From the NCBI RefSeq assembly GCF_030419005.1, contig NZ_CP106951.1, positions 3,782,001-3,846,000 of the forward strand: a DNA stretch of 64,000 nt, read 5' to 3'. The translations under genes and the position numbers were made by a program. This document shows, piece after piece, positions 6,893 through 23,578 of the stretch. The notes below the pieces were generated by a model. The model did no database searches and was not told where the DNA came from. It worked only from the letters and a program-made list of their open reading frames with translations. Each line of letters starts with the position of its first letter. Positions within the stretch are counted from its first letter, which is position 1. The stretch comes from Eleftheria terrae. Its GTDB lineage: Bacteria > Pseudomonadota > Gammaproteobacteria > Burkholderiales > Burkholderiaceae_C.

Positions 6893-7171
6893 ATGCAAAT
6901 GCTCTACAACTCTGAGAACTTCGCTGTGGTCGAGTTCGAGGTGCCGACCTCGGCGCCCGAGTTCGACGCCGAGCCGGGCAGTCTCACGCGGGGCGGTTAT
7001 GAGATCGTCGACAAGTTCAAGCGCAAAGAGATCTATATAGAAGGTGCGCTTGCCGAGAGCTTCAAGCAGGGCGTGGAAGCGCTGATCGAGGCCTCGCCGA
7101 CGGTGGAAGACATCGACGCCTATATCGAGCGCTTCTCCTCCCTGATGTTGCAGCCGGTCGTGCTGCACTGA
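6893..7171 (+). CDS. DUF3567 family protein
   Basis: A small acidic 92-aa protein, MQMLYNSENFAVVEFEVP onward, matching the DUF3567 family typical of Burkholderiales (start motif, RGGYEIVDKFKRKEIYIEG core, and C-terminal SLMLQPVVLH). The family has no known function. The ATG at 6893 is preferred because AGGAG lies 12 bases upstream and the protein begins at the conserved MQMLYNS block; upstream in-frame codons read through non-coding sequence. Confidence 0.85.
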   Translation: MQMLYNSENFAVVEFEVPTSAPEFDAEPGSLTRGGYEIVDKFKRKEIYIEGALAESFKQGVEALIEASPTVEDIDAYIERFSSLMLQPVVLH

Positions 7172-7807
7172 TCCGGGCGCGCGGCGCCGGGTGGCGCCTG
7201 ATCTGCCGGTGCGCGGCTTCTTGCGGTCCGCCCGGCATTTCATGCCGGGCCACTGGTTGACGGGGCGGGCCTGCAGTCGCGCTTGAAGACCTGGGCCAGG
7301 GCCTGCTTGGCCAGCGCGGCACGCTGTCCCCGGCGGCCTGGGCCGGGTGGCCTGGGGCGATCTTGGTGAACGTCGAGATCGGTTAACCGCTTCGCGGGTC
7401 GGCCCGATCCGGGAAGCCATGCCGGCCAGTGCCCGCGGTTCCTCGTCAATGGTGGGACCGCCCGGGCCGGCTGGCCGATTCTCGGCCGGGGCCGGCCAGC
7501 CGGAGGTGCACCTTCTTCCAAGCTTGGCGTCGGCTTCTCGGCTGCGGACGAACGCCGCTTCTGCCGACGCTGTCCTCTGTTCGAACGAGCAGGCGCCCGG
7601 CAGTGCTGGAGGACCGGCCTTCAGCTCGCCGCATGAGCGGGCCGCCGGGCGGGCCTGGACGACGTTGATCGCCCATCAAGCAGCGCCCCTCGCGGGGGAC
7701 CGCCTGTGCGGGCTGCGAGCCCGCTCCCCGTCGAGTGCCGGTGCGCCCCGCAGCCTGCCGGGCATCGGTGGATCTGCCCCGGGCGGCCGCATCGGGCATG
7801 TCCCGCC
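7172..7807. other. 636-base gap with no convincing gene
   Basis: Open frames exist on both strands but they are Arg/Pro/Gly/Ala-rich and resemble no protein I know, as expected for random high-GC DNA. A perfect hairpin (GCCCGGCAT, loop TTC, ATGCCGGGC; 7230-7250) lies 59 bases past the DUF3567 stop and may act as a terminator, although it has no T-tract. The rest looks like spacer or decayed sequence. It separates the housekeeping genes from the accessory cluster. Confidence 0.5.
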
Positions 7808-9052
7808 TCAGCGCTGCTGGACCACCGGTTGTGCCGGCTCTGCCGTCCAGCGAGCAAGGCACAACAGCGAGAAGCCCATCAGCATCAGCCCGTAGGCCGC
7901 ATAGGCCCACCACACCGGCGTGCCATCGAGGACCACGCTGATCAGCTGGATGCTGCCGGTGGCCAGCAGCGAGAGCAGGAAGTTGTAGAGGGAAATGATG
8001 CGTCCCTGGACCTGCGTCGGCAGCGACCCCTGCAGTTCGCTCATCAAGGCCACACCGCTGTGGAAGAACACGCCGGCCAGGAAATAGGTGATGCCCAGCC
8101 ACACCGTGTGGGCCGAGGAGGGGAAGACGGCCAGCACCGCCCCGTAGGCGAAGACCCCCGCCACCATCATGCGGCGCTCACCCAGCCGCTGTTCCACCGC
8201 GTGCACCGCCAGCCCGGCCGCGATGCTGCCGACACCGAACAGGGCATCGATGATCCCGAAAGCGGTGACGTCGAGGTGGAACTGGCGCACCAGCAATAGC
8301 GGCAGCAGGAAGTTCACCAGCGGCACCGAGACGTAGAAGGCCAGGCAGGCGAGGAACATCCGGCGCGCCACGCGGTGGCGGTGCAGCATGAGCAGGCCGT
8401 CGCGGTAGTCCGCGACCCAGCTCCAGGCGGTGCGTGGGCCTGTGGCCGGCGCCGGGGGGGTGGCCGCAATGCGGGCGACACTCAGGCCGCCCAGCACCGA
8501 CAGCAGGCCCGCAGTGGCCAGCGCGCCGGGCTCGGACAGGTAGGCGGCCAGCAGGCCGCCGGCCACCGGTCCCAGCAGTGCGCCGGCCTGCGACGCGATC
8601 GAAATGGTCGAGCTGCCGAGCAGCAGTTGGTCCTTGTCGACGATCTCGCGCAGCAGCGCGCGCGCGGCAATCTGGTGCAGCAGCGTCGAGATCCCCACCG
8701 CCACCGTCATGGCGTAGACGTACCAGACGCCGCTGAAATCGAACATCAGCAGCACGACGGTCAGCAGCACCAGCCCGCCCTGGAACAAGTCGGCCGCCAT
8801 CACGATGCTGCGGCGACTGATCCGGTCGGTCCATACGCCCACCACCGGCGATAACAGCGCGCTGGGCAGTAAGGTCAGTGTCAGCTGAAACGCCACCGAC
8901 GACGCCTGGCCGGTGAGTTTCAGCAGCAACCAGGCGGTGACCACATAAACGATTCCATCTGCCGCGCGGTTGCAGAACATGCGGATGAATAGGCTGGTGA
9001 AAGCCGGATCATTCAGCAAGGAAAAGCGGCGCCGTAAGTATCCCGTCAGCAT
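7808..9052 (-). CDS. MFS exporter beside the biosynthetic operon
   Basis: This 414-aa protein has about 12 hydrophobic helices and the MFS loop motif between helices 2 and 3 (VGVWTDRISRRS). It resembles the MFS_3/enterobactin-exporter (EntS)-like group with a central loop near residue 200. It is transcribed away from the eight-gene cluster starting at 9387, across a 334-base divergent promoter region. An exporter in that position usually carries the cluster's product out of the cell or gives self-protection; that role is inference. The substrate is unknown. Confidence 0.85.
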   Translation of the reverse strand: MLTGYLRRRFSLLNDPAFTSLFIRMFCNRAADGIVYVVTAWLLLKLTGQASSVAFQLTLTLLPSALLSPVVGVWTDRISRRSIVMAADLFQGGLVLLTVVLLMFDFSGVWYVYAMTVAVGISTLLHQIAARALLREIVDKDQLLLGSSTISIASQAGALLGPVAGGLLAAYLSEPGALATAGLLSVLGGLSVARIAATPPAPATGPRTAWSWVADYRDGLLMLHRHRVARRMFLACLAFYVSVPLVNFLLPLLLVRQFHLDVTAFGIIDALFGVGSIAAGLAVHAVEQRLGERRMMVAGVFAYGAVLAVFPSSAHTVWLGITYFLAGVFFHSGVALMSELQGSLPTQVQGRIISLYNFLLSLLATGSIQLISVVLDGTPVWWAYAAYGLMLMGFSLLCLARWTAEPAQPVVQQR

Positions 9053-9386
9053 TTGAAGGCAGGGCTTTCTTGAATGGGCTAAAGAGGGGCGGCGTCATAT
9101 TGCCGTCACGGAAAATGGCATGAATCGCGCGGGATCCTGCGGCCGCGGCGATCTTGCGTGTAAGGATATTTGCATCGATAGGTGACAGAGCTGACAGTAA
9201 TGTCCCAAGGTGCAGGTGAGAACGTTGACAGCTAGCGACTCCCCCAAACGGGGTGCTGTAATTCCATGCAGTGCACGGTACTGCCTTTGAATCGGCTTCT
9301 CCAATGGCCGGCAGTCAGGGGTGAAAAGCAGCCGTGTGGCCACTCCTCAAAATCATTCAACGCACCCAGCGCACGCGGAGTCATAA
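9053..9386. promoter_or_regulatory. Divergent control region between MFS exporter and biosynthetic operon
   Basis: No gene is seen in these 334 bases, which are clearly less GC-rich than their neighbours. TGACAG occurs three times (9183, 9192 and 9226); the second overlaps the inverted repeat GACA-GTAA-TGTC (9193-9204). TTGACA at 9225-9230 matches a -35 consensus, but no matching -10 at normal spacing is clear. CCCC-AAAC-GGGG (9242-9253) can form a small hairpin. The repeats could be operator sites for a regulator not encoded in the window. Confidence 0.4.
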
Positions 9387-10460
9387 ATGCTGTCTTTGAA
9401 AAACCGGCGAGTCGCTATATTTGCGGAAGGCCGCTTCGGCCCCACGACCAGCAAAGTCGCCACGTCTTACCTGAGGTATTGCCACCCGGATTGCGTGGCC
9501 GTCATCGACACCAAGCTGGCCGGCCGTGATGTCGGTGACATCATCGGCTACGGCCACGGTATTCCCATCGTCAATTCGCTGTCGGAGGCGCTCGAATATC
9601 GTCCCGACGTTTTCATGATCGGCGTCGGCCTGTTCTCCAATGCCTTGCCGGCCGAATGGCGGGAGCAGATCGTCCAGGCGCTCAAGCTCGGCATGGACGT
9701 GGTCAGCGGCCTGCATTTCCGCATTGCCAAGGATCCTGAATTCGAAGCGCTGGCCGCCGCATCCGGCAGCCGCATCTGGGACACCAAGGAGCCGCCGGAG
9801 GCGCTGAGCACCAGCGCCGCCAAGGTCGGCCAGCTCGGCAACTACGTGGTGCACACGGTGGGCAGCGACTGCCGTGTCGGCAAGAAGACCACCGCCATCG
9901 AGATCACGCAGGCGGCCCGCAAGAAGGGCTACAACGCCGGCTTCGCGGCCACCGGGCAGAGCGGCATCTACATCAGCGGCTCGGGCGTGGCGGTGGATGC
10001 CGTGCCGGCCGATTTCATCGCCGGCGTCAGCGAGGCGCTGGTGCTGGACAACGCGCCGCACCACGACTGGATCGTCGTCGAGGGCCAGGGCTCGATCTCT
10101 CACCCGGCCTACAGCGGCGTGACGCTGGGCCTGCTGCACGGCGCGATGCCGCAGGCGCTGGTGCTGTGCCATGAAGCGAAGCTGCAGCACCACAAGGACT
10201 GGCCGCAAGTGCCGCTGCGGCCGCTCAACGAACTGATCGCCCTTTACGAGCAGCTGGCCTCGCACATGCGCCCGGCCAAGGTGGTGGGCATCAGTGTCAA
10301 CTGCGCCAGCCTGGGGAGGGAGGAAGCGGCCGAATATGTCCGGCAGATCGAGGAAGAAACCGGCCTGCCGGCCACCGACGTGATTCATTTCGGCGCCGAC
10401 CGCCTGGTCGATGCACTGGCACTTTATCAACAGCAGATTCCGGAAAAGCTGGCGGCCTGA
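9387..10460 (+). CDS. DUF1611 family P-loop protein (DgcN-like)
   Basis: The 357-aa protein has the two-domain layout of DUF1611: a Rossmann-like N-terminal domain (about 1-140, RVAIFAEGRFG at the start) and a P-loop domain with Walker A-like VGSDCRVGKKTT (about 158-169). A DUF1611 member, DgcN, has been described as a D-glutamate N-acetyltransferase, so an acyl-transfer step on an amino acid is a reasonable guess here, not more. It is the first gene of the 9.4-17.7 kb operon. The ATG at 9387 follows CGGAGTCAT, a weak ribosome site. Confidence 0.78.
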   Translation: MLSLKNRRVAIFAEGRFGPTTSKVATSYLRYCHPDCVAVIDTKLAGRDVGDIIGYGHGIPIVNSLSEALEYRPDVFMIGVGLFSNALPAEWREQIVQALKLGMDVVSGLHFRIAKDPEFEALAAASGSRIWDTKEPPEALSTSAAKVGQLGNYVVHTVGSDCRVGKKTTAIEITQAARKKGYNAGFAATGQSGIYISGSGVAVDAVPADFIAGVSEALVLDNAPHHDWIVVEGQGSISHPAYSGVTLGLLHGAMPQALVLCHEAKLQHHKDWPQVPLRPLNELIALYEQLASHMRPAKVVGISVNCASLGREEAAEYVRQIEEETGLPATDVIHFGADRLVDALALYQQQIPEKLAA

Positions 10461-10475
10461 CCAGCGTCACATGTG

Positions 10476-10494
10476 CCGGCGGCTTGACCGCCGG
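10476..10494 (+). terminator. Hairpin after the DUF1611 gene (attenuator-like)
   Basis: CCGGCGG, loop CTTGA, CCGCCGG is a perfect 7-bp stem 16 bases after the DUF1611 stop, followed by CGGTTCTCCC rather than a T-tract. It may reduce read-through into the 146-base gap before the next gene, or protect mRNA ends. Weak evidence. Confidence 0.35.
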
Positions 10495-10606
10495 CGGTTC
10501 TCCCTGTGATTTGCAGGACACCGTGCGTTGCCTTTGGGTCGCGCAGGGATGCGTCTTGCCGAGCCGCGGCCCTGCCGCTTTCTGAACCCCATTATTTGCC
10601 ACGAAT

Positions 10607-11980
10607 ATGCGTCTCCAAGTCTCACCCACCCAGAAACTGGCCGGCCAGGCCGTCATTCCGTCTTCCAAGCCGGAAACCCAGCGTGCCATTCTCACCGCCA
10701 CCCTGGCGCGCGGCGTCTCTTATGTGCGCAATGACCTGCGCTGCACGGAAACCACCGCGATGAAAAATGCCTGCCGTGCGGTCGGTGCGGTCATCGAGGA
10801 AAACGACGGCTATCTGAAAATCACCGGTGTCGGCCGCGACCTGCGTCCGGGCCAGCGCGTCATCGATGCGCTGGGCTCCGGCCTGGTATTCCGCGTATTT
10901 ACCGCGCTGAGCTGTTTTGCGGCATCGCCGGCCATCATCACGGGCGACCGCATCCTGCGCGGCCGGGTGATGGCGCCGCTGTTCAATGCCTTGCGCGACC
11001 TGGGCGCGCGCATTCACTGCATCGGCGACGAAGGGCATGCGCCGGTCGTCAACTGGGGCGGCGGCCTGAATGGTGGGCGCTGCGTGCTGCCGGGAAATGT
11101 CAGCTCTCAGTTCATCACCGCCATCATGTTTTCGGCGCCGCTGGCTTCGACACCGACCGAAATCGTGATCGAAGGCGAAATCCTGTCGATTTCCTACATC
11201 CGCCAGACCATCGAGGCGATGGTGCGCGCCGGCATCCGCGTGGAGCATTCGGACGATTTCTCCACCGTCACGGTGCACCCGGGCGAATACCAGCCGATCG
11301 ACTACCGCGCCGGTGGCGACTACACGTCCTCGTCCTACCTGGTGGCGGCGGCGGCGATCTTCCGCGGCACCACCGTGCTGGGCAATCTGAACAGCCAGAG
11401 CCTGCAGGGCGAGCGCGCCATCATCGACGTGGTGCAGGCGCTGGGCGTCAAGGTCAGCTTCGACGACAGCCGCAACACCCTCACCCTCGTGAACGACCAG
11501 GACGAGCTGCGCGGCGACTACGAGTTCGACGCCAGCGACTATCCGAACATCGTGCCCACGCTGGCCGCCATCGGCGCCTTCGTGAAGGGGCGCTTCCGCG
11601 TGGTGGGCGGCTCCATCACCCGGCTGCACAAATCGCCGCGCATCAAGGCGATGGTGAGCGAGCTGGGCAAGATGGGCGTCAACATCAAGCCGCTGTTCAA
11701 GGACGACGTCTACGACGGCTTCGAGATCCATGGCGAGAGCCACTATGCCGGCGGCGTGTCGCTGTCGAGCTGGGGCGACCACCGCATCTTCATGTCGCTG
11801 TTCGTCGCCTCGCTGCGCTGCCGCCAGCCCAACCTGCTGGAAGGCTATGCCGACGTGCACTGCTCCTTCCCGGACTTCTTCGAGCAGTTCGAGAAGCTGG
11901 GCATCCAGTTCAAGGAAGTCGGCGCCCCGCTGGCCGCAGAGCTGCAGCCCGCGCAGCAGCCCGCGCTGCTGACGGCCTGA
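10607..11980 (+). CDS. EPSP-synthase (AroA) homologue with a rewritten active site
   Basis: The 457-aa protein aligns along its length with 5-enolpyruvylshikimate-3-phosphate synthase. Kept: K21 and R26 (SSKPETQR), R96, S166-S167-Q168 (GNVSSQF), R345 and R393 (DHRIFM), which hold shikimate-3-phosphate and PEP in AroA. Changed, by eye against E. coli numbering: Ser23 to Pro22, Asn94 to Gly90, Asp313 to Asn314 (DYPNIVP), Glu341 to Lys342 (LHKSPR) and Lys411 to Cys419 (VHCSFPDFF). Asp313, Glu341 and Lys411 are central to catalysis, so this is unlikely to be the housekeeping AroA. It may transfer enolpyruvyl to another acceptor, do other chemistry or be inactive. No strong ribosome site precedes 10607. 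Confidence 0.85.
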   Translation: MRLQVSPTQKLAGQAVIPSSKPETQRAILTATLARGVSYVRNDLRCTETTAMKNACRAVGAVIEENDGYLKITGVGRDLRPGQRVIDALGSGLVFRVFTALSCFAASPAIITGDRILRGRVMAPLFNALRDLGARIHCIGDEGHAPVVNWGGGLNGGRCVLPGNVSSQFITAIMFSAPLASTPTEIVIEGEILSISYIRQTIEAMVRAGIRVEHSDDFSTVTVHPGEYQPIDYRAGGDYTSSSYLVAAAAIFRGTTVLGNLNSQSLQGERAIIDVVQALGVKVSFDDSRNTLTLVNDQDELRGDYEFDASDYPNIVPTLAAIGAFVKGRFRVVGGSITRLHKSPRIKAMVSELGKMGVNIKPLFKDDVYDGFEIHGESHYAGGVSLSSWGDHRIFMSLFVASLRCRQPNLLEGYADVHCSFPDFFEQFEKLGIQFKEVGAPLAAELQPAQQPALLTA

Positions 11981-12022
11981 GCCCCTGCCGCCCCGCCGCT
12001 CCCACACAGGAATCCCCTCCCC

Positions 12023-12880
12023 ATGATTTCCGAAGACGACATCCGCTTCTACAAGGACAACGGCTACCTGGTGGCCAAGGACCTCTTCTCCCGCGAGCAG
12101 GTGGACCAGGCCCTGCGGGCCATCGACGAGGTGCTCGACCCGCGCCGCGCCGAGAAGGCCTACGAGATGGAGCCGCGCGACACGCAGACCGTGCGTCGCA
12201 TCTGGTCGCCCACCAAGAAGCACCCCACCTTCTGGCAGATGGCCAAGGACGACCGCCTGCTCGACGCCATCCAGGGCCTGATCGGCGAGAACGTGCTGTT
12301 CCACTACAGCAAGCTCAACATGAAGGGCCCCAAGGTCGGCAGCGTGGTGGAGTGGCACCAGGACTTCTCCTACTACCCCCACACCAACAGCGACCTGCTG
12401 ACCGCGCTGATCTTCTTCGATGACGCCACGAAGGAGAACGGCTGCCTGCGGGTGATTCCCGGCTCGCACAAGAAGGGCCTGGTCTCGCACGATGTTGGCG
12501 GCTACTTCCGCGGCAAGGTCAGCAACATCGACGAGAGCCAGGCGGTGTCGGTGGAAGTGCCGGCCGGCGGCGTGCTCTTCCTGCACTGCCTGACGCTGCA
12601 CGCCTCGGCCCGCAACGAGTCGGACCAGCCGCGCCGCACCTTCCTGCCGGCCTACCGGGCGGCCGATGCCTTCCCCATCTATTTCGGCCCGCATGCCGCC
12701 CACAACGAGCCGGGCATCGAGCTGCTGCGCGGCAAGCGGGCCCGCACCGCGCGGGTCGAGGCGGGCGTGCATCCGCTGCCGCTGGCCGAGCGCGAGTTCG
12801 GCTCCATCTACGAGGTGCAGGAAGGCTCGCACCTCACCAAGGACCTGGCGGAGATGAAGACCGCCGGCTACGCCGTCTGA
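12023..12880 (+). CDS. Phytanoyl-CoA dioxygenase (PhyH) family Fe(II)/2OG oxygenase
   Basis: The 285-aa protein shows the PhyH facial triad: H112-Q-D114 in VEWHQDFSYY and the distal His193 in CLTLHASARNES, with Arg204 or Arg205 nearby for the 2-oxoglutarate carboxylate. Such enzymes hydroxylate, halogenate, desaturate or rearrange unactivated carbons and are common tailoring enzymes of small metabolites. AGGAAT 15 bases upstream of ATG 12023 is a fair ribosome site. It lies 42 bases after the EPSP-synthase homologue and 22 before the aminotransferase, within the operon. Confidence 0.88.
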   Translation: MISEDDIRFYKDNGYLVAKDLFSREQVDQALRAIDEVLDPRRAEKAYEMEPRDTQTVRRIWSPTKKHPTFWQMAKDDRLLDAIQGLIGENVLFHYSKLNMKGPKVGSVVEWHQDFSYYPHTNSDLLTALIFFDDATKENGCLRVIPGSHKKGLVSHDVGGYFRGKVSNIDESQAVSVEVPAGGVLFLHCLTLHASARNESDQPRRTFLPAYRAADAFPIYFGPHAAHNEPGIELLRGKRARTARVEAGVHPLPLAEREFGSIYEVQEGSHLTKDLAEMKTAGYAV

Positions 12881-12902
12881 GATCCGAAGCGGGGGTGTGA
12901 AC

Positions 12903-14036
12903 ATGATCGATTGGGGACGTCTGGTGGCGCCGGGGATCCGGCAGCTGCGCCCGTACCGGCCTGGCATCACCGAGGAGCGCCTGCAGCGCGAACGCGGGCT
13001 GTCGCGCATCTTCAAGTTCTCCAGCAACGAGACGCCGGTGGAGCCGTCGCCCGCCATCGCGGCGGCCATGGCCGAGGCGCTGCGCAAGGCCAACCGCTAT
13101 CCCGACGCGCATGCGCTGCTGGAACGGCTGTCGGCCAAGCTGCAGGTGCCGGCGCAGGGCCTGATGCTGGGCAACGGCTCGATCGACCTGATCGAATCGG
13201 TGGTGCGCACCTTCGTCGCGCCGGGCTGCAATGTGGTGCTGTCGGAGTACGGCTACTGCGCCTATCCCCCGCTGGTCACCGCGCAGGGCGGGGAGGTGCG
13301 GGTGGCGGCCTCCAGCGGTGGCTTCGGCCACCAGGTGGACCGCATCCTGGCCAGCATCGACGACAACACCCGCATGGTGATCGTCGACAGCCCGAGCAAC
13401 CTGGCCGGTGCCAGCCTGGCCCTGGCCGAGCTGGACCGCCTGGTGCATGCGCTGCCGCCGCGGGTGATCCTGCTGCTGGACGAGGCCTACATCGAGTTCG
13501 CCGACATCGATCCGACCCACACCGCCGCCCTGCCGCTGGCCTTCCCCAACGTCATCGTGGCGCGCACCTTCTCCAAGGCCTACGGCCTGGCGGGCATGCG
13601 CGTCGGCTATGCCATCGCCGATCCCGACCTGGCCAGCTGGGTGCAGCGCCTGCGCCCGCCGTTTCCGGTGGGGCGGGTGGCGATGGCCGGCGCATTGGCG
13701 GCGCTGGACGACACCACCCACCTGCAAGGCGTGGTGCAGGCGGCCCGGCGTGGGCGCGAGCAGCTGGCGACGGGCCTGCGCGAGCTGGGCGTGAAGGTGC
13801 TGGCCAACGAGGGCAACTTCGTGCTGGCCGACTTTGGCGACAACGGCCGGCGCGTCTACGAGGGCTTGCTGGCCCAGGGCCTGATCACCCGTGCAATGGA
13901 GGCCTACGGCCTGCCGCAGCAGCTGCGCATCTCCATCGGCGCGCCGCATGAAGTGGCACGGCTGGTGGAAGCGGTGCGCGAGCTGCTGCAGCAGCCCACC
14001 GGCCGGGCCGAGAAGCTGCAGCGGAGCGAGGCATGA
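12903..14036 (+). CDS. Histidinol-phosphate aminotransferase-like PLP enzyme
   Basis: This 377-aa class I/II aminotransferase resembles HisC: SSNETP near residue 41, SPSN at 163-166 (NPNN in HisC), D193-E-A-Y, PLP lysine K225 in TFSKAYGLAGMR, and the arginine in the final LRISIG block. The GGGGG just upstream supports ATG 12903; a GTG two codons earlier is also possible. Its place between a dioxygenase and ATP-grasp ligases suggests it makes the amine of a pathway intermediate rather than histidine; HisC-like enzymes are often recruited this way. Its last four bases overlap the next start codon (ATGA), so the two are translationally coupled. Confidence 0.88.
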   Translation: MIDWGRLVAPGIRQLRPYRPGITEERLQRERGLSRIFKFSSNETPVEPSPAIAAAMAEALRKANRYPDAHALLERLSAKLQVPAQGLMLGNGSIDLIESVVRTFVAPGCNVVLSEYGYCAYPPLVTAQGGEVRVAASSGGFGHQVDRILASIDDNTRMVIVDSPSNLAGASLALAELDRLVHALPPRVILLLDEAYIEFADIDPTHTAALPLAFPNVIVARTFSKAYGLAGMRVGYAIADPDLASWVQRLRPPFPVGRVAMAGALAALDDTTHLQGVVQAARRGREQLATGLRELGVKVLANEGNFVLADFGDNGRRVYEGLLAQGLITRAMEAYGLPQQLRISIGAPHEVARLVEAVRELLQQPTGRAEKLQRSEA

Positions 14037-15274
14037 ACATCGTCATCGTCAGCAACTTCGCCCGCTTTCCCGGCACGGCCCGCTGGGACTTCGAACTGGT
14101 GCGCTACGAGGACTTCATCGACCACACCGCCCACCAGGTCACCTACCTTGCCAACCGCAAGGGCCGCAGCGCCATCACCGCGCCGGCCGGCAGCTACACG
14201 CTGCACGAGCTGGAGGCGCTGGACGACATCGCCGCCTGGCGCAGCGTGCTGCAAGGCGTGATCCGCGAGCGCGGGCCGGTCGACCGGCTCATCGTGTTCT
14301 CGGAATTCCTGCTCGACATCGCGGCCGAGCTGCGTGAGGAGCTGGGCATTCCCGGCAACCGCCCGGCCGACAACCGCCTGGGCCGCGACAAGCTGCTGAT
14401 GAAGCACAAGGTCGGTGGGGCCGGCCTGCGCGTGCCGCACTACACCGGCGTGGCCGCCGGCGAGGTGGACAAGGCGCTGGCCTTCGCCCGCGACAACGGC
14501 TTTCCGCTCATCCTCAAGCCGGTCGACGGCGCCTCCAGCGCCGGCGTGCAGACCCTGCAGGACGAAGCCGCCCTGCGCGCTGCCGTGGCCGCGTTGCCGC
14601 CGGGCGAATGGGACCTGGAAGAGTTCATCGACGGCCGGCTCTTCCACATCGACGGGCTGGTGGACGTGGACGGGAAGGTCACCTTCATCGTGCCGTCGCG
14701 CTACGTCAACAACTGCCTCGACTTCACCCGCGGCGCGCCGCTCGGCTCGGTGATGCTGGCGCCCGGCAGCGAGCTGCACGAGCGCGTCTGCCAATTCACC
14801 ACGGCCTGCATCGAAGCCATCGGCCTGAAGGCCTGCCCCTTCCACCTGGAGCTGTTCCACAGCCAGCGCGACGAGCTGGTCTTCCTGGAGGTGGGGGCCC
14901 GCGTCGCCGGGGCCGACGTGCCGTACATGATCCATCGCAGCACCGGCGTCAACCTGTTCGCCGAATGGGTGGCAATGGCCATGGGTGGCAGCGGCCGCCT
15001 CTCGGCCCGGGCCACCTCGGTGGGCGGCTGGCTCATGTTCCCCCGGCCGGCCGGCCTGCCGCTGCGCGTGACCGGCGTCACCACCTTTGCCGGCCGGCTG
15101 CCCACGGTGTGGCGACAGCTGGTGCCGCCGGTGGGTGAGCTGCTGCAGCCGGACTCGGGCTATGCCTCCATGCAGGCGGGCCGTTTCCTGTTCGAGGCCG
15201 AGCGGCCCGAGCCGATCGAGCGCGACATCGAGACCGTGCTGCGCGAGTTCTCGCTGAGCACCGAACAACCCTGA
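14033..15274 (+). CDS. ATP-grasp ligase 1
   Basis: The 413-aa protein has an ATP-grasp fold: FPLILKPVDGASSAGV (phosphate-binding loop, about 157-172), EEFIDGRLFHIDGLV, and the magnesium site VFLEVGARVAGADVPY. ATP-grasp enzymes join a carboxylate, activated as acyl phosphate, to an amine or other nucleophile; carbamoyl-phosphate synthetase-like members of this length often make dipeptides or amides in antibiotic pathways. Substrates cannot be read from sequence. It overlaps the aminotransferase by 4 bases and precedes a second ATP-grasp gene by 15 bases. Confidence 0.87.
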   Translation: MNIVIVSNFARFPGTARWDFELVRYEDFIDHTAHQVTYLANRKGRSAITAPAGSYTLHELEALDDIAAWRSVLQGVIRERGPVDRLIVFSEFLLDIAAELREELGIPGNRPADNRLGRDKLLMKHKVGGAGLRVPHYTGVAAGEVDKALAFARDNGFPLILKPVDGASSAGVQTLQDEAALRAAVAALPPGEWDLEEFIDGRLFHIDGLVDVDGKVTFIVPSRYVNNCLDFTRGAPLGSVMLAPGSELHERVCQFTTACIEAIGLKACPFHLELFHSQRDELVFLEVGARVAGADVPYMIHRSTGVNLFAEWVAMAMGGSGRLSARATSVGGWLMFPRPAGLPLRVTGVTTFAGRLPTVWRQLVPPVGELLQPDSGYASMQAGRFLFEAERPEPIERDIETVLREFSLSTEQP

Positions 15275-15289
15275 GCTTCAGGCATCGAC

Positions 15290-16615
15290 ATGGCTAAACA
15301 ATCATTGCTGCTGCTGGTCCACCAGGCGCGCTCCTATGTCGCGATGATCCAGCAGTACCTCGACCAGATGGGGCTGGCCTGCCTGGTGCTCAGCTCCCGC
15401 CCGCTCGATGCGCGCGACCTGGAGCAGACCGGCCGGCACTGTGCGCGCCTGTGGCATGTGCCGGAGGATCACCTCGCCGAGGAGCACCTCGACCCGGTGC
15501 TGCAGGAAGCGCGCGCCGAAGGCTACGAGGTCATCGCGGCGCTGGCCAGCTTCGAGGGCCTGCGCCTGCTGATGGCGCAAGCCAACCGCCGCATCGGCGC
15601 CACCGACGCCGACGTGCAGGCGCTGCGCCACTGCATGGACAAGTTCACCTGCCGCAACCTGCTGCACGAGGCCGGCCTGAGCCGGGCTCGCGCCCGGCTG
15701 GTGGAGGCGGATGGCATCGAGGCGCTGCACCGCGAGCCGGGCAAGCTGTTCATCAAGCCACGGCGCGGTGCGGGCTCCTTTGCCTGCTTCCGGCTCGACG
15801 CGAGCTTCGACGCCGGCAAGCTCGCCGAGCTGCAGGCGCAGATGCAGCGCGACCGGGCCTTCAACGCGATCTTCGCCGGCCAGTTCGACTTCATTGCGGA
15901 AGACTGGCTGCCCGGCGACGAATACAGCTTCGAGGTGCTGGTGGTCGACGGCGAGAGCTACGTGATCGGGGTGCATGCCAAGTACCTCGACGACTCAGGC
16001 GGCACCACGCTGGAGACCAGCAATTCCCTGCCCGCGCCGCGCCTGCCGGACGACGCCCAGGCGGCCGGCGAGCGCTACATCGACCGCTGCCTGGCGGCGC
16101 TCGGCCTGCGCGAAGGCTGCTACCACATCGAGACCCGCTACGACGCCGCCACCCGGCACTGGGACATCATCGAGATCAACGCCCGCATGGGCGGCGCGCT
16201 GATCAACCAGAGCGTGGGCGTCTTCACCGGTGGCCTGTCGATGCTGCAGCTGTGGGTGCAGACCGTCTGTGCCCGCAGCCCGGCGCAGCGCGAGACGCTG
16301 CAGGCACAGCTGGCCTGGCTGCGCGAGAGCACCCGCCGCCGCGAAGGCCGCCTGCAGCACGGCACCGTGTTCCTCAGCCGCTACGGCGAGCGCAACCGCG
16401 TGCTGGAGCGCATCTCGCTCGAAGCGGTGCCGCGCCAGCCCGATATCTACGACATCCCCGTGCGGGAGGGCGCCCGCCTGCCCGATTCCGAGCGGGGCAT
16501 CTTCCTGTTGAACGCACTGTGGAAGGTCGACATCGCCCGCATCGCCGAGGAGCTGCAGACGCTGCCCGCGATGCTCGATGAAAGCCTGATCGTGCGATAC
16601 GCCCCGAGCGAATGA
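15290..16615 (+). CDS. ATP-grasp ligase 2
   Basis: A 441-aa ATP-grasp protein: KLFIKPRRGAGSF (about 149-161), ED-W-LPGDEYSFEVLVVDGE, and metal site IIEINARMGGALINQSVG. The C-terminal about 110 residues extend past the grasp core, as in carboxylate-amine ligases such as BacD-type or L-amino acid ligases. It is not a close copy of its neighbour, so the two probably act on different substrates in sequence, for example adding two residues to a scaffold. Activity as a peptide or amide ligase is inference from family and context. Confidence 0.87.
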   Translation: MAKQSLLLLVHQARSYVAMIQQYLDQMGLACLVLSSRPLDARDLEQTGRHCARLWHVPEDHLAEEHLDPVLQEARAEGYEVIAALASFEGLRLLMAQANRRIGATDADVQALRHCMDKFTCRNLLHEAGLSRARARLVEADGIEALHREPGKLFIKPRRGAGSFACFRLDASFDAGKLAELQAQMQRDRAFNAIFAGQFDFIAEDWLPGDEYSFEVLVVDGESYVIGVHAKYLDDSGGTTLETSNSLPAPRLPDDAQAAGERYIDRCLAALGLREGCYHIETRYDAATRHWDIIEINARMGGALINQSVGVFTGGLSMLQLWVQTVCARSPAQRETLQAQLAWLRESTRRREGRLQHGTVFLSRYGERNRVLERISLEAVPRQPDIYDIPVREGARLPDSERGIFLLNALWKVDIARIAEELQTLPAMLDESLIVRYAPSE

Positions 16616-16652
16616 CCTTGTTGTGTCTGCTTTACCCAAGGAGAAGAGAGAA

Positions 16653-17396
16653 ATGAACCGAGTCAGCCAGTGCGGCATCGAGCGTCCCGCACCGTTCTAT
16701 TCGCTGGCGGATGGCGCCAAGGTGCGCGAGCGCCTGGACCGCTACCTGGACCAGAAGATGGCCGAATGGGCCGCCACCGTGCCCTATGCCAACCACCTGG
16801 AGAGCAAGGACCTCAACAGCGCCTGGTACCGCCGCCACACCATCGAGCATGTCTGGCGCATCCGCCTGAGCCGCGCGGCCCACTGCAAGGCGCTGCACGC
16901 CATCACCAAGATCTCGCCCGAGGCCGCCCAGCTCTATGCCGAGTACCAGGCCGAGGAGATGAACCACGACACGCTGTTCATGCAGGACTGCAAGGCCATG
17001 GGCGTGACGCAGGAGGAACTGCTGCGCACCGAGCCCTTCCTGGCCACGCGGCTGCTGCAGGGCTTCTTCTACTTCGTCTGCGAGCACGAGAGCCCGATCG
17101 GCGTGGTGGCGTCCAGCTACCTGGTCGAGTACACCACCGCCAAGCTCACGCCCAAGCAGATCACGGCGCTGAAGGAGTCGGTCGGCACCGACAAGATCAA
17201 GGGCCAGCTGGCCCACATCAACACCGACATGGGCGACGACCATGCCGGCGAGATGTGGCGCATCCTGCGCTACCTGATCCACAGCGAAGCCGATGTCGAG
17301 AAAGTGCTGCGCTACTTCGATGACATCCAGACCATCCTGGCCATGTACTTCCGCGAGCTGTACGAAGCCACGGTGGCCGAGAAGGCGGCGGCATGA
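16653..17396 (+). CDS. Haem-oxygenase-like diiron protein (iron-containing redox family)
   Basis: The 247-aa all-helical protein has the TenA/haem-oxygenase-like fold with candidate diiron ligands in EYQAEEMNHDTLF (EExxH), FVCEHESPIG, and HINTDMGDDHAGEMW. Members of the haem-oxygenase-like diiron oxidase superfamily (UndA, BesC, SznF, CADD types) carry out N-oxygenation, C-C cleavage or desaturation with O2. AAGGAGAAG about 6-15 bases before ATG 16653 fixes the start. It overlaps the ferredoxin gene by 4 bases, which suggests that the ferredoxin supplies its electrons. The reaction is unknown. Confidence 0.82.
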   Translation: MNRVSQCGIERPAPFYSLADGAKVRERLDRYLDQKMAEWAATVPYANHLESKDLNSAWYRRHTIEHVWRIRLSRAAHCKALHAITKISPEAAQLYAEYQAEEMNHDTLFMQDCKAMGVTQEELLRTEPFLATRLLQGFFYFVCEHESPIGVVASSYLVEYTTAKLTPKQITALKESVGTDKIKGQLAHINTDMGDDHAGEMWRILRYLIHSEADVEKVLRYFDDIQTILAMYFRELYEATVAEKAAA

Positions 17397-17731
17397 CGGA
17401 GGAGGGCGCGCTGCAGGAGGCCGCCGCCCTCGCACCCTCGGGGGTGCGCATGCACACGGTGCGCATCCCCGGGACCGGCGAGCAGTTCACGCTGCCGGAC
17501 GGGGCCTACCTGTCCGACGCCGCCGAGCTGGAGCTGGCGGGGCTGATCTTCGGCTGCCGGGCCGGTGCCTGCGGCATCTGCACGATCGAGATCGTGTCCG
17601 GCGGCCACAACGTCTCCCGCCAGCAGGACGGCGAGCGCAGCTTCGTCGCCTCGCTCGGCTACTCGCCCGATTCGGTGCGGCTGGCCTGCCAGTGCCAGCT
17701 GCGCGGCGATATCGAGATCCGCCAATGTTGA
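17393..17731 (+). CDS. [2Fe-2S] plant-type ferredoxin
   Basis: The 112-aa protein carries the plant-type [2Fe-2S] ligand set: [19 protein letters not shown] (C-x4-C-x2-C) and the fourth cysteine in LACQCQL. It is a small electron carrier. The start codon overlaps the stop of the diiron protein (ATGA), which argues for a dedicated redox partner made in fixed ratio. No ferredoxin reductase is encoded in the window, so a general reductase would have to serve. It is the last gene of the operon; a 133-base gap precedes metH. Confidence 0.92.
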
Positions 17732-17864
17732 GGCGGTACCCGGCGGCGGCCTTCGGTGCCGCCGCCGCACCTGCGGGCGCCAGCTGCGGAACTTGCCCCG
17801 GTTTGGCGCCGCGCGCCCGCCCCCACGCGCCGCGCGGTCAGCAGCCGGTGCCTACAATCGGCGC

Positions 17865-18914
<1,050 letters not shown>

Positions 18915-20704: not shown

Positions 20705-20778
20705 GTTCCAAGGAGCGTTGCAGCGCGGCCGCAATCCGGCGCGTCAGGCTTGGAACTTCACATCGCAACGACGCTCAC
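20705..20778 (+). promoter_or_regulatory. S-adenosylhomocysteine (SAH) riboswitch
   Basis: The 5' leader of metH part 2 matches the SAH riboswitch: P1 is a perfect 8-bp helix, GTTCCAAG (20705-20712) with CTTGGAAC (20749-20756). The conserved core reads AAGGAGCGTTGCAGC and GGCGCGTCAGGCTTGG, and GAGCGT (20713-20718) can pair with downstream ACGCTC (20771-20776), within AACGACGCTCACC. Bound SAH is known to turn on such genes, so metH should be induced when SAH builds up and methyl-group recycling is needed. The start codon is 47 bases further on. Recognition rests on consensus bases and pairing; no covariance model was run. Confidence 0.9.
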
Positions 20779-20824
20779 CCGCGCCACGGGTGAGCCGTGG
20801 CCGGCCCAACCTAGCCGCTGCGCC

Positions 20825-23578
<2,754 letters not shown>

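Follow-up and report, generated by a model that had tools for sequence, protein, structure and literature searches.

A gene island in a 64,000-nucleotide stretch of the genome of Eleftheria terrae (contig NZ_CP106951.1, positions 3,782,001 to 3,846,000; hereafter the window, from a genome of 7.03 Mb in 4 contigs) is, at odds of roughly two in three, a system that makes and exports a short peptide (a dipeptide or tripeptide) with neither a ribosome nor a nonribosomal peptide synthetase (NRPS), by the steps proposed below for its nine genes. Eight of these genes, named A to H, lie on the plus strand between positions 9387 and 17731, and the ninth, on the minus strand, encodes a transporter of the major facilitator superfamily (MFS). 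A preliminary description of this DNA had called nine open reading frames and assigned each to a family, and both the coordinates and the families were borne out by an open reading frame check and by Pfam and NCBIfam profile scans. Its reading of the locus as an NRPS-independent small-molecule operon with its own exporter is supported, and its proposal that two ligases put together a modified amino acid or a small peptide agrees with the matches of E and F to solved L-amino acid ligases.

In the proposed pathway, B, D and C, perhaps together with A, would make a non-protein amino acid. B, which has the fold of 5-enolpyruvylshikimate-3-phosphate (EPSP) synthase (AroA), would join phosphoenolpyruvate (PEP) or a similar phosphorylated anion to an acceptor other than shikimate-3-phosphate, the aminotransferase D would transaminate, and the oxygenase C would hydroxylate. 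A may N-acylate the amino acid as a protection or for self-resistance, which is a guess. The ATP-grasp ligases E and F would form the peptide bonds, and the diiron oxidase G, reduced through the ferredoxin H, would oxidise the peptide, most likely by desaturating a residue other than arginine to an alkene or alkyne. Export of the product would fall to the MFS pump. The content of the island, its conservation, the linkage of its genes, the residues retained or lost and the sequence relationship between G and MboA are direct observations. Homology suggests the ligase roles of E and F and the oxidase role of G; in what order the steps run, what B acts on, what A does and what exactly is produced are guesses.

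Only two PDB sequences match the G profile at E ≤0.001, namely MboA (9ypi, E 1.9e-28) and a structural-genomics protein (3dde, E 2.5e-12). MboA belongs to the mangotoxin system mboABCDE(F) of Pseudomonas syringae and introduces an internal alkyne into the arginine at the C-terminus of Leu-Ala-Arg, a tripeptide built by the ATP-grasp ligases MboC and MboD (PMC13185094, 2026; this source and PMC6511847, PMC12614342 and PMC13108848 are all cited from excerpts). The second desaturation by MboA requires the redox partner MboB, a reductase with flavin and Fe2S2; Tyr82 is the proposed base for desaturation, and Asn57, Asp61 and Asp139 bind the arginine side chain (PMC13185094). When the residues of MboA are mapped onto G, as read by eye from the printed alignment, the six iron ligands of the 3-His/3-carboxylate diiron site, Asp90 and Tyr82 all fall on identical residues. 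Tyr82, Glu86, His89, Asp90, Glu143, His172, Asp176 and His181 are kept in all 28 related loci of the classes I to III described below, and the arginine-binding residues are kept in none of them: Asn57 is replaced by Ser in 28/28, Asp61 by His in 9 and Gln in 19, and Asp139 by Ser in 9 and Asn in 19. Since the ligands are retained and the arginine-binding residues are lost, G probably performs MboA-like chemistry on a residue other than arginine.

The first in-frame start codon of G is GTG at 16623, and comparison with homologues indicates that G most likely starts at ATG 16653 instead. Exactly at the residue of ATG 16653 start 16 of the 24 aligned homologues, the other eight starting one to three residues earlier, and an AAGGAG motif lies upstream of this ATG. 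H is a protein of 112 amino acids consisting of the Fer2 domain alone, and its Cys55, Cys60, Cys63 and Cys99 fit the plant-type ferredoxin motif C-X4-C-X2-C...C. The best PDB match of E is the L-amino acid ligase 4wd3 (E 1.3e-12), with 3vot also close, and the best matches of F are the L-amino acid ligase 3vot (E 1.1e-13) and BacD. BacD is the ligase of the bacilysin system, which further contains the MFS transporter BacE, the aminotransferase BacF, the prephenate decarboxylase BacA and BacB/BacG. The island resembles that system in having an ATP-grasp dipeptide ligase, an aminotransferase and an MFS exporter, and differs from it in that the nine families include no BacA or BacB/BacG type and instead a diiron oxidase and an EPSP-synthase-like protein.

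The closest likeness is to mangotoxin biosynthesis, where an oxidase that shares the iron ligands, Asp90 and Tyr82 with G is likewise accompanied by two ATP-grasp ligases (E and F being so assigned by family match) and by an adjoining gene for an Fe2S2 redox protein (PMC13185094). The differences are that no MboE-type arginine deiminase family occurs among the nine genes, that the arginine-binding residues of MboA are gone from G, and that the four genes A to D are additional (PMC13185094). Mangotoxin itself was rejected as the product, there being no deiminase, no flavin reductase and no arginine-binding residues. By analogy, the second half of the island would work like the mangotoxin system, of which it is not a member. 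The earlier statement that the gene set could be matched to no familiar pathway is to be divided: the ligase and diiron half has a precedent in mangotoxin as described in the excerpts of PMC13185094, and for the A to D half no precedent was found in the open-access papers searched. VarO of the thiovarsolin pathway has about 30% identity to MboA (PMC13185094) and is proposed to dehydrogenate an arginine side chain (PMC6511847). This haem-oxygenase-like protein is encoded near an ATP-grasp protein, VarL, and an MFS protein, VarP, as is G; thiovarsolin differs in being a ribosomal thioamidated peptide, in that VarL is unnecessary for the products seen, and in that the seven-gene set named in the excerpts of PMC6511847 includes no gene of the A to D type. 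An oxidase of this kind is paired with an ATP-grasp ligase in no fewer than 25 unique clusters (PMC13185094), and the present cluster may be one of these.

The distribution of the gene set was examined with a profile built from 25 G homologues, which was searched against 84,980 species genomes with a pattern filter. The filter was passed by 97 relatives of G; 80 were kept, and the class counts refer to these. The locus stretches reach at most 10 kb from G, and a gene missing from a stretch could sit farther out. Matching of the nine window proteins to the 80 loci gave four classes, the first three of which together comprise 28 loci, with the window as an extra row. Class I consists of nine proteobacterial loci from Sphaerotilaceae, Chitinibacteraceae, Burkholderiaceae and Pseudoalteromonadaceae, eight of which have the order A-B-C-D-E-F-G-H, the ninth (L017) being cut by a contig end; in the Pseudoalteromonas locus a short-chain dehydrogenase gene sits between B and C. 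Class II consists of 16 loci, all from Streptomyces, in which D and B share a strand and the opposite strand carries E-A-F-G-C; C and D are each found in 15 of them (the Streptomyces D proteins, of 35–36% identity, are called D by position); a LuxR-type regulator is a neighbour in 15 and a flavin reductase in 10 of the 16. Class III consists of three Burkholderia loci with G-B and F-A pairs plus a malic-enzyme-like gene. The other 52 loci form class IV, in which G lies mostly with a ferredoxin and ATP-grasp ligases. Core members of this class, such as that on an annotated Burkholderia stagnalis plasmid, have ferredoxin, G-type oxidase and ligases in one run as in the window, and differ in often having a third ATP-grasp gene and in that no match to B, C or D was found in the class IV stretches, A being matched in L077 alone.

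Runs of a ferredoxin, a G-type oxidase and two to three ATP-grasp genes without B occur in L048, L049, L053, most other class IV loci and L117, in Pseudomonas, Trinickia, Frankia, Rahnella, Aeromonas and Streptomyces, and look like a second uncharacterised peptide family. A plasmid search returned 7 records, every one below 60% identity. One locus, on an Enterobacter plasmid (L116), has a distant G homologue (35%) together with genes for an aminotransferase, an M14 peptidase, an MFS protein and a second iron-containing redox enzyme.

Residues expected to be functional are conserved in the other proteins of classes I to III as well, as far as the 28 loci are readable: the P-loop G-K-K-T of A in 27/27, the HxD motif of C in 24/24 and its distal His and Arg in 25/25, and five checked residues of D for pyridoxal phosphate (PLP) or substrate in 24/24.

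Several points weigh against the proposed peptide pathway. H was not seen in the examined stretches of the Streptomyces loci (0/16) or of class III (0/3), so the electron donor of G differs there, and H itself is a ferredoxin on its own, unlike MboB, a reductase that has flavin as well (PMC13185094). D is missing from all three class III loci and from one Streptomyces locus; it is therefore not essential to the cluster family. A scores 263 bits against NF041892, the profile of the N-acetyltransferase DgcN, which is well below the cut-off of 480; literature searches on DUF1611 and DgcN yielded nothing relevant. In L077, from Aestuariibacter, A and G lie close together with ATP-grasp genes and no B within 10 kb. 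In a quick G tree assessed by the Shimodaira–Hasegawa-like approximate likelihood ratio test (SH-aLRT), classes I, II and III each occupy one side of a branch, with supports of 97, 95 and 94, and the 29 G rows of the 28 loci and the window stand together on one side of a branch with a support of 83, which is weak in a tree for which the program warned of long branches. Finally, G could catalyse another diiron reaction, such as N-oxygenation, C–C cleavage or ring formation. A peptide made as proposed but modified by G in one of these ways, azetidine or nitrile formation included, is unlikely, yet deserves to be reckoned with. The fold supports many reactions (PMC13185094; PMC13108848) and the substrate-pocket residues of G are unlike those of MboA, whereas the retention of Asp90 and of the proposed desaturation base in all 28 loci, and a context of ligases, oxidase and electron carrier that resembles mangotoxin, favour desaturation.

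The linkage of B and G was followed in samples of 150 Burkholderiaceae and 150 Streptomyces genomes with thresholds of E 1e-90 for B and E 1e-40 for G. Each sample includes a centre genome picked for carrying the cluster, so that the 7 Burkholderiaceae and 3 Streptomyces genomes with B represent 6 and 2 independent finds. G was found in 14 genomes of each sample, including all ten genomes with B, and occurs without B in 7 Burkholderiaceae and 11 Streptomyces genomes. In nine of the ten, B and G share a contig and are no more than 7 kb apart; in the tenth they are on different contigs, B lying about 530 bases from the end of its own. On the strength of these nine out of ten, chance clustering was rejected; the operon is a real grouping. 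The preliminary description had looked to scattered homologues without conserved clustering as evidence against it; the test found the clustering kept across two phyla.

Within the genus, the cluster is present in two of nine genomes, the window's own and that of G002 (strong E matches), and in both it fills the interval between a DUF3567 gene and metH, the downstream gene, which is present in 9/9. The site comparison took in five of the seven genus genomes without the cluster (L104–L108): none of the nine proteins found a match at E 1e-5 in these five stretches, and G002 matches all nine. In L104–L107 about 3 kb separates metH from the DUF3567 gene upstream, and an AAA ATPase gene lies between them in both of those scanned. 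The cluster occupies a spot that is variable within the genus. L108 (genus relative G007) has an interval of about 12.6 kb in which none of the nine finds a match, and the spot may accept other inserts. Since class I alone spans four families, the cluster has probably moved between lineages, a history that agrees with its uneven occurrence within the genus. This unevenness also bears on the improbable alternative that the genes belong to everyday amino-acid metabolism or catabolism and make no secreted metabolite. Homologues of DUF1611/DgcN and of AroA and HisC do occur in primary metabolism, but the presence of the cluster in 2 of 9 genus genomes and in 7/150 and 3/150 genomes elsewhere (centres counted), its ligase pair, its exporters and the LuxR-type regulators that neighbour 15 of the 16 Streptomyces loci argue against this alternative.

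B exceeds the cut-off of the AroA equivalog TIGR01356 (300.3 against 287.25 bits). The window genome encodes its housekeeping AroA elsewhere, as a fusion with an additional domain; this protein is 31% identical to B and has canonical residues at all checked columns except N336. Compared with it, B has the replacements Ser23Pro, Thr97Leu, Asp313Asn, Lys340His, Glu341Lys and Lys411Cys. Together with the fold, B retains Lys22, Arg27, Arg124, Ser169, Ser170, Gln171, Ser197, Tyr200, Arg344, His385 and Arg386, the residues that in Escherichia coli AroA (whose numbering is used) bind the shikimate-3-phosphate and PEP anions; Asp313 and Glu341 are presumably catalytic in EPSP synthase. From 8000 candidates scored, at least 310 homologues of B were obtained at E 1e-60, and 120 of them, the window's own included, were listed. 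Among the matches listed, Pro23, Asn313, His340 and Lys341 occur in 120/120 and Lys22 in 119/120, position 97 is Leu in 118 and Phe in 2, position 411 is Leu in 64 and Cys in 56, and every named homologue is called 3-phosphoshikimate 1-carboxyvinyltransferase (AroA). In the 27 readable loci of the 28, positions 23, 313, 340 and 341 are Pro, Asn, His and Lys without exception. A decaying copy would not show such near-invariant replacements. We infer from these residues that B is not a working copy of EPSP synthase: shikimate recognition and the original acid-base pair appear to be gone while the anion sites remain, and the His-Lys pair may stand in for the acid-base pair. Among 369 genomes of the class, the exact B motif pattern occurs in that of the window alone, which says that it is rare and nothing more.

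These replacements bear on the very improbable reading of B as a resistant spare EPSP synthase and of D as a spare HisC, guarding the producer of an inhibitor of aromatic amino acid synthesis akin to a natural glyphosate. B and D both exceed the NCBIfam equivalog cut-offs for aroA and hisC (D scores 279.0 bits against 276.55 for TIGR01141, and the best other D-related gene in the window genome has 32% identity), and resistant target copies are common in producer clusters. A target copy should retain catalysis, whereas Asp313, Glu341, Lys340, Ser23 and Thr97 are replaced in 120/120 B homologues among the matches listed and the canonical residues reside in a separate housekeeping gene; a resistant spare AroA/HisC was rejected on account of the replaced active site. 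Just as improbable is the comparison with nikkomycin and polyoxin pathways drawn in the preliminary description from a shared set of families, namely an EPSP-like enzyme (B, as an enolpyruvyl transferase for a nucleotide), a HisC-like aminotransferase, an iron oxygenase and ATP-grasp proteins, to which the diiron PolF of polyoxin can be added (PMC12614342): this nucleoside pathway was rejected, since no radical SAM gene, as its octosyl-acid step would need, was found among the nine genes or 20 chosen neighbour genes of related loci, B, itself compared with AroA and not with a nikkomycin or polyoxin enzyme, lacks the catalytic residues of EPSP synthase, and the closest solved relative of G is MboA.

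Table 1. Features of the island, with positions in the window.
Feature	Coordinates	Strand	Evidence
MFS exporter, divergent from operon	7808..9052	-	PF07690, E 6.8e-31
Divergent intergenic region, presumed promoter region	9053..9386	.	334 bases, spacing
A: DUF1611 P-loop protein, relative of N-acetyltransferase DgcN	9387..10460	+	PF07755, PF17396
B: EPSP-synthase fold, remodelled active site	10607..11980	+	PF00275; TIGR01356
C: PhyH-type Fe(II)/2-oxoglutarate oxygenase	12023..12880	+	PF05721
D: HisC-like PLP aminotransferase	12897..14036	+	PF00155; TIGR01141
E: ATP-grasp ligase 1	14033..15274	+	PF13535; L-amino acid ligase 4wd3
F: ATP-grasp ligase 2	15290..16615	+	PF13535; L-amino acid ligase 3vot
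G: MboA-like haem-oxygenase-fold diiron oxidase	16653..17396	+	PF14518, MboA profile match
H: plant-type [2Fe-2S] ferredoxin, presumed electron donor of G	17393..17731	+	PF00111

The control region reported between the MFS gene and A was confirmed at its full length. The genes of the operon are spaced by 146 (A-B), 42 (B-C), 16 (C-D), 15 (E-F) and 37 (F-G) bases. The 4-base overlaps described earlier are present, at D/E and G/H, and number two rather than several. Scans of the operon ends, including the divergent intergenic region, revealed neither a sigma-70-like promoter nor an intrinsic terminator, and no Rfam family was found in 7000–18500. The MFS protein scores 141.8 bits against TIGR00900, an H+ antiporter subfamily, below the cut-off of 319.6. 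Its type was found again in just one of the nine class I loci, that of Aquabacterium sp. A7-Y (L012, Sphaerotilaceae), at the equivalent position and with 73% identity; five other class I loci have a different MFS gene adjoining the cluster genes. The methionine synthase downstream is split in two open reading frames, a homocysteine-binding part (17565–18914) and a pterin/B12/activation part (20750–23578); in the space separating the two, OmpA-family coding sequence occupies the other strand.

A gene for a luciferase-like monooxygenase accompanies six of the nine class I loci and 7 of the 16 class II loci. It lies beside the class I operons at 12430–14818 in L013 and upstream in L014, L015, L016, L018 and L044, and is absent from the window, as is the second MFS gene that occurs in five of these six class I loci. 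Two of the monooxygenases were scanned and are relatives of alkanesulfonate monooxygenase, with about 200 bits against cut-offs of 510 and 518.

The gene set was not found in the open-access literature searched, subscription papers and MIBiG lying outside the scope of the search. As far as could be seen, the A to D module and the B subfamily are undescribed, and the type of pathway has a precedent. Diiron oxidases that add double or triple bonds to peptides are a very recent discovery, and 28 further loci with an MboA-like enzyme and an altered substrate pocket allow a direct test of what determines substrate and outcome. B, for its part, represents among the matches listed a homogeneous subfamily whose named members are called AroA despite replaced catalytic residues; this has a bearing on how the shikimate pathway is annotated, and it points to new chemistry in the fold that glyphosate targets. 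We tentatively suggest, at less than even odds, that B is a new type of enzyme that uses its His-Lys pair and Asn313 to join PEP or another phosphorylated anion to a non-shikimate acceptor on the way to a new amino acid, and that E and F incorporate this amino acid into NRPS-free peptides in Proteobacteria and Streptomyces, which G and H make unsaturated by placing an alkene or alkyne on a non-arginine residue. If this is true, such a peptide family would have stayed hidden because B is annotated as AroA.

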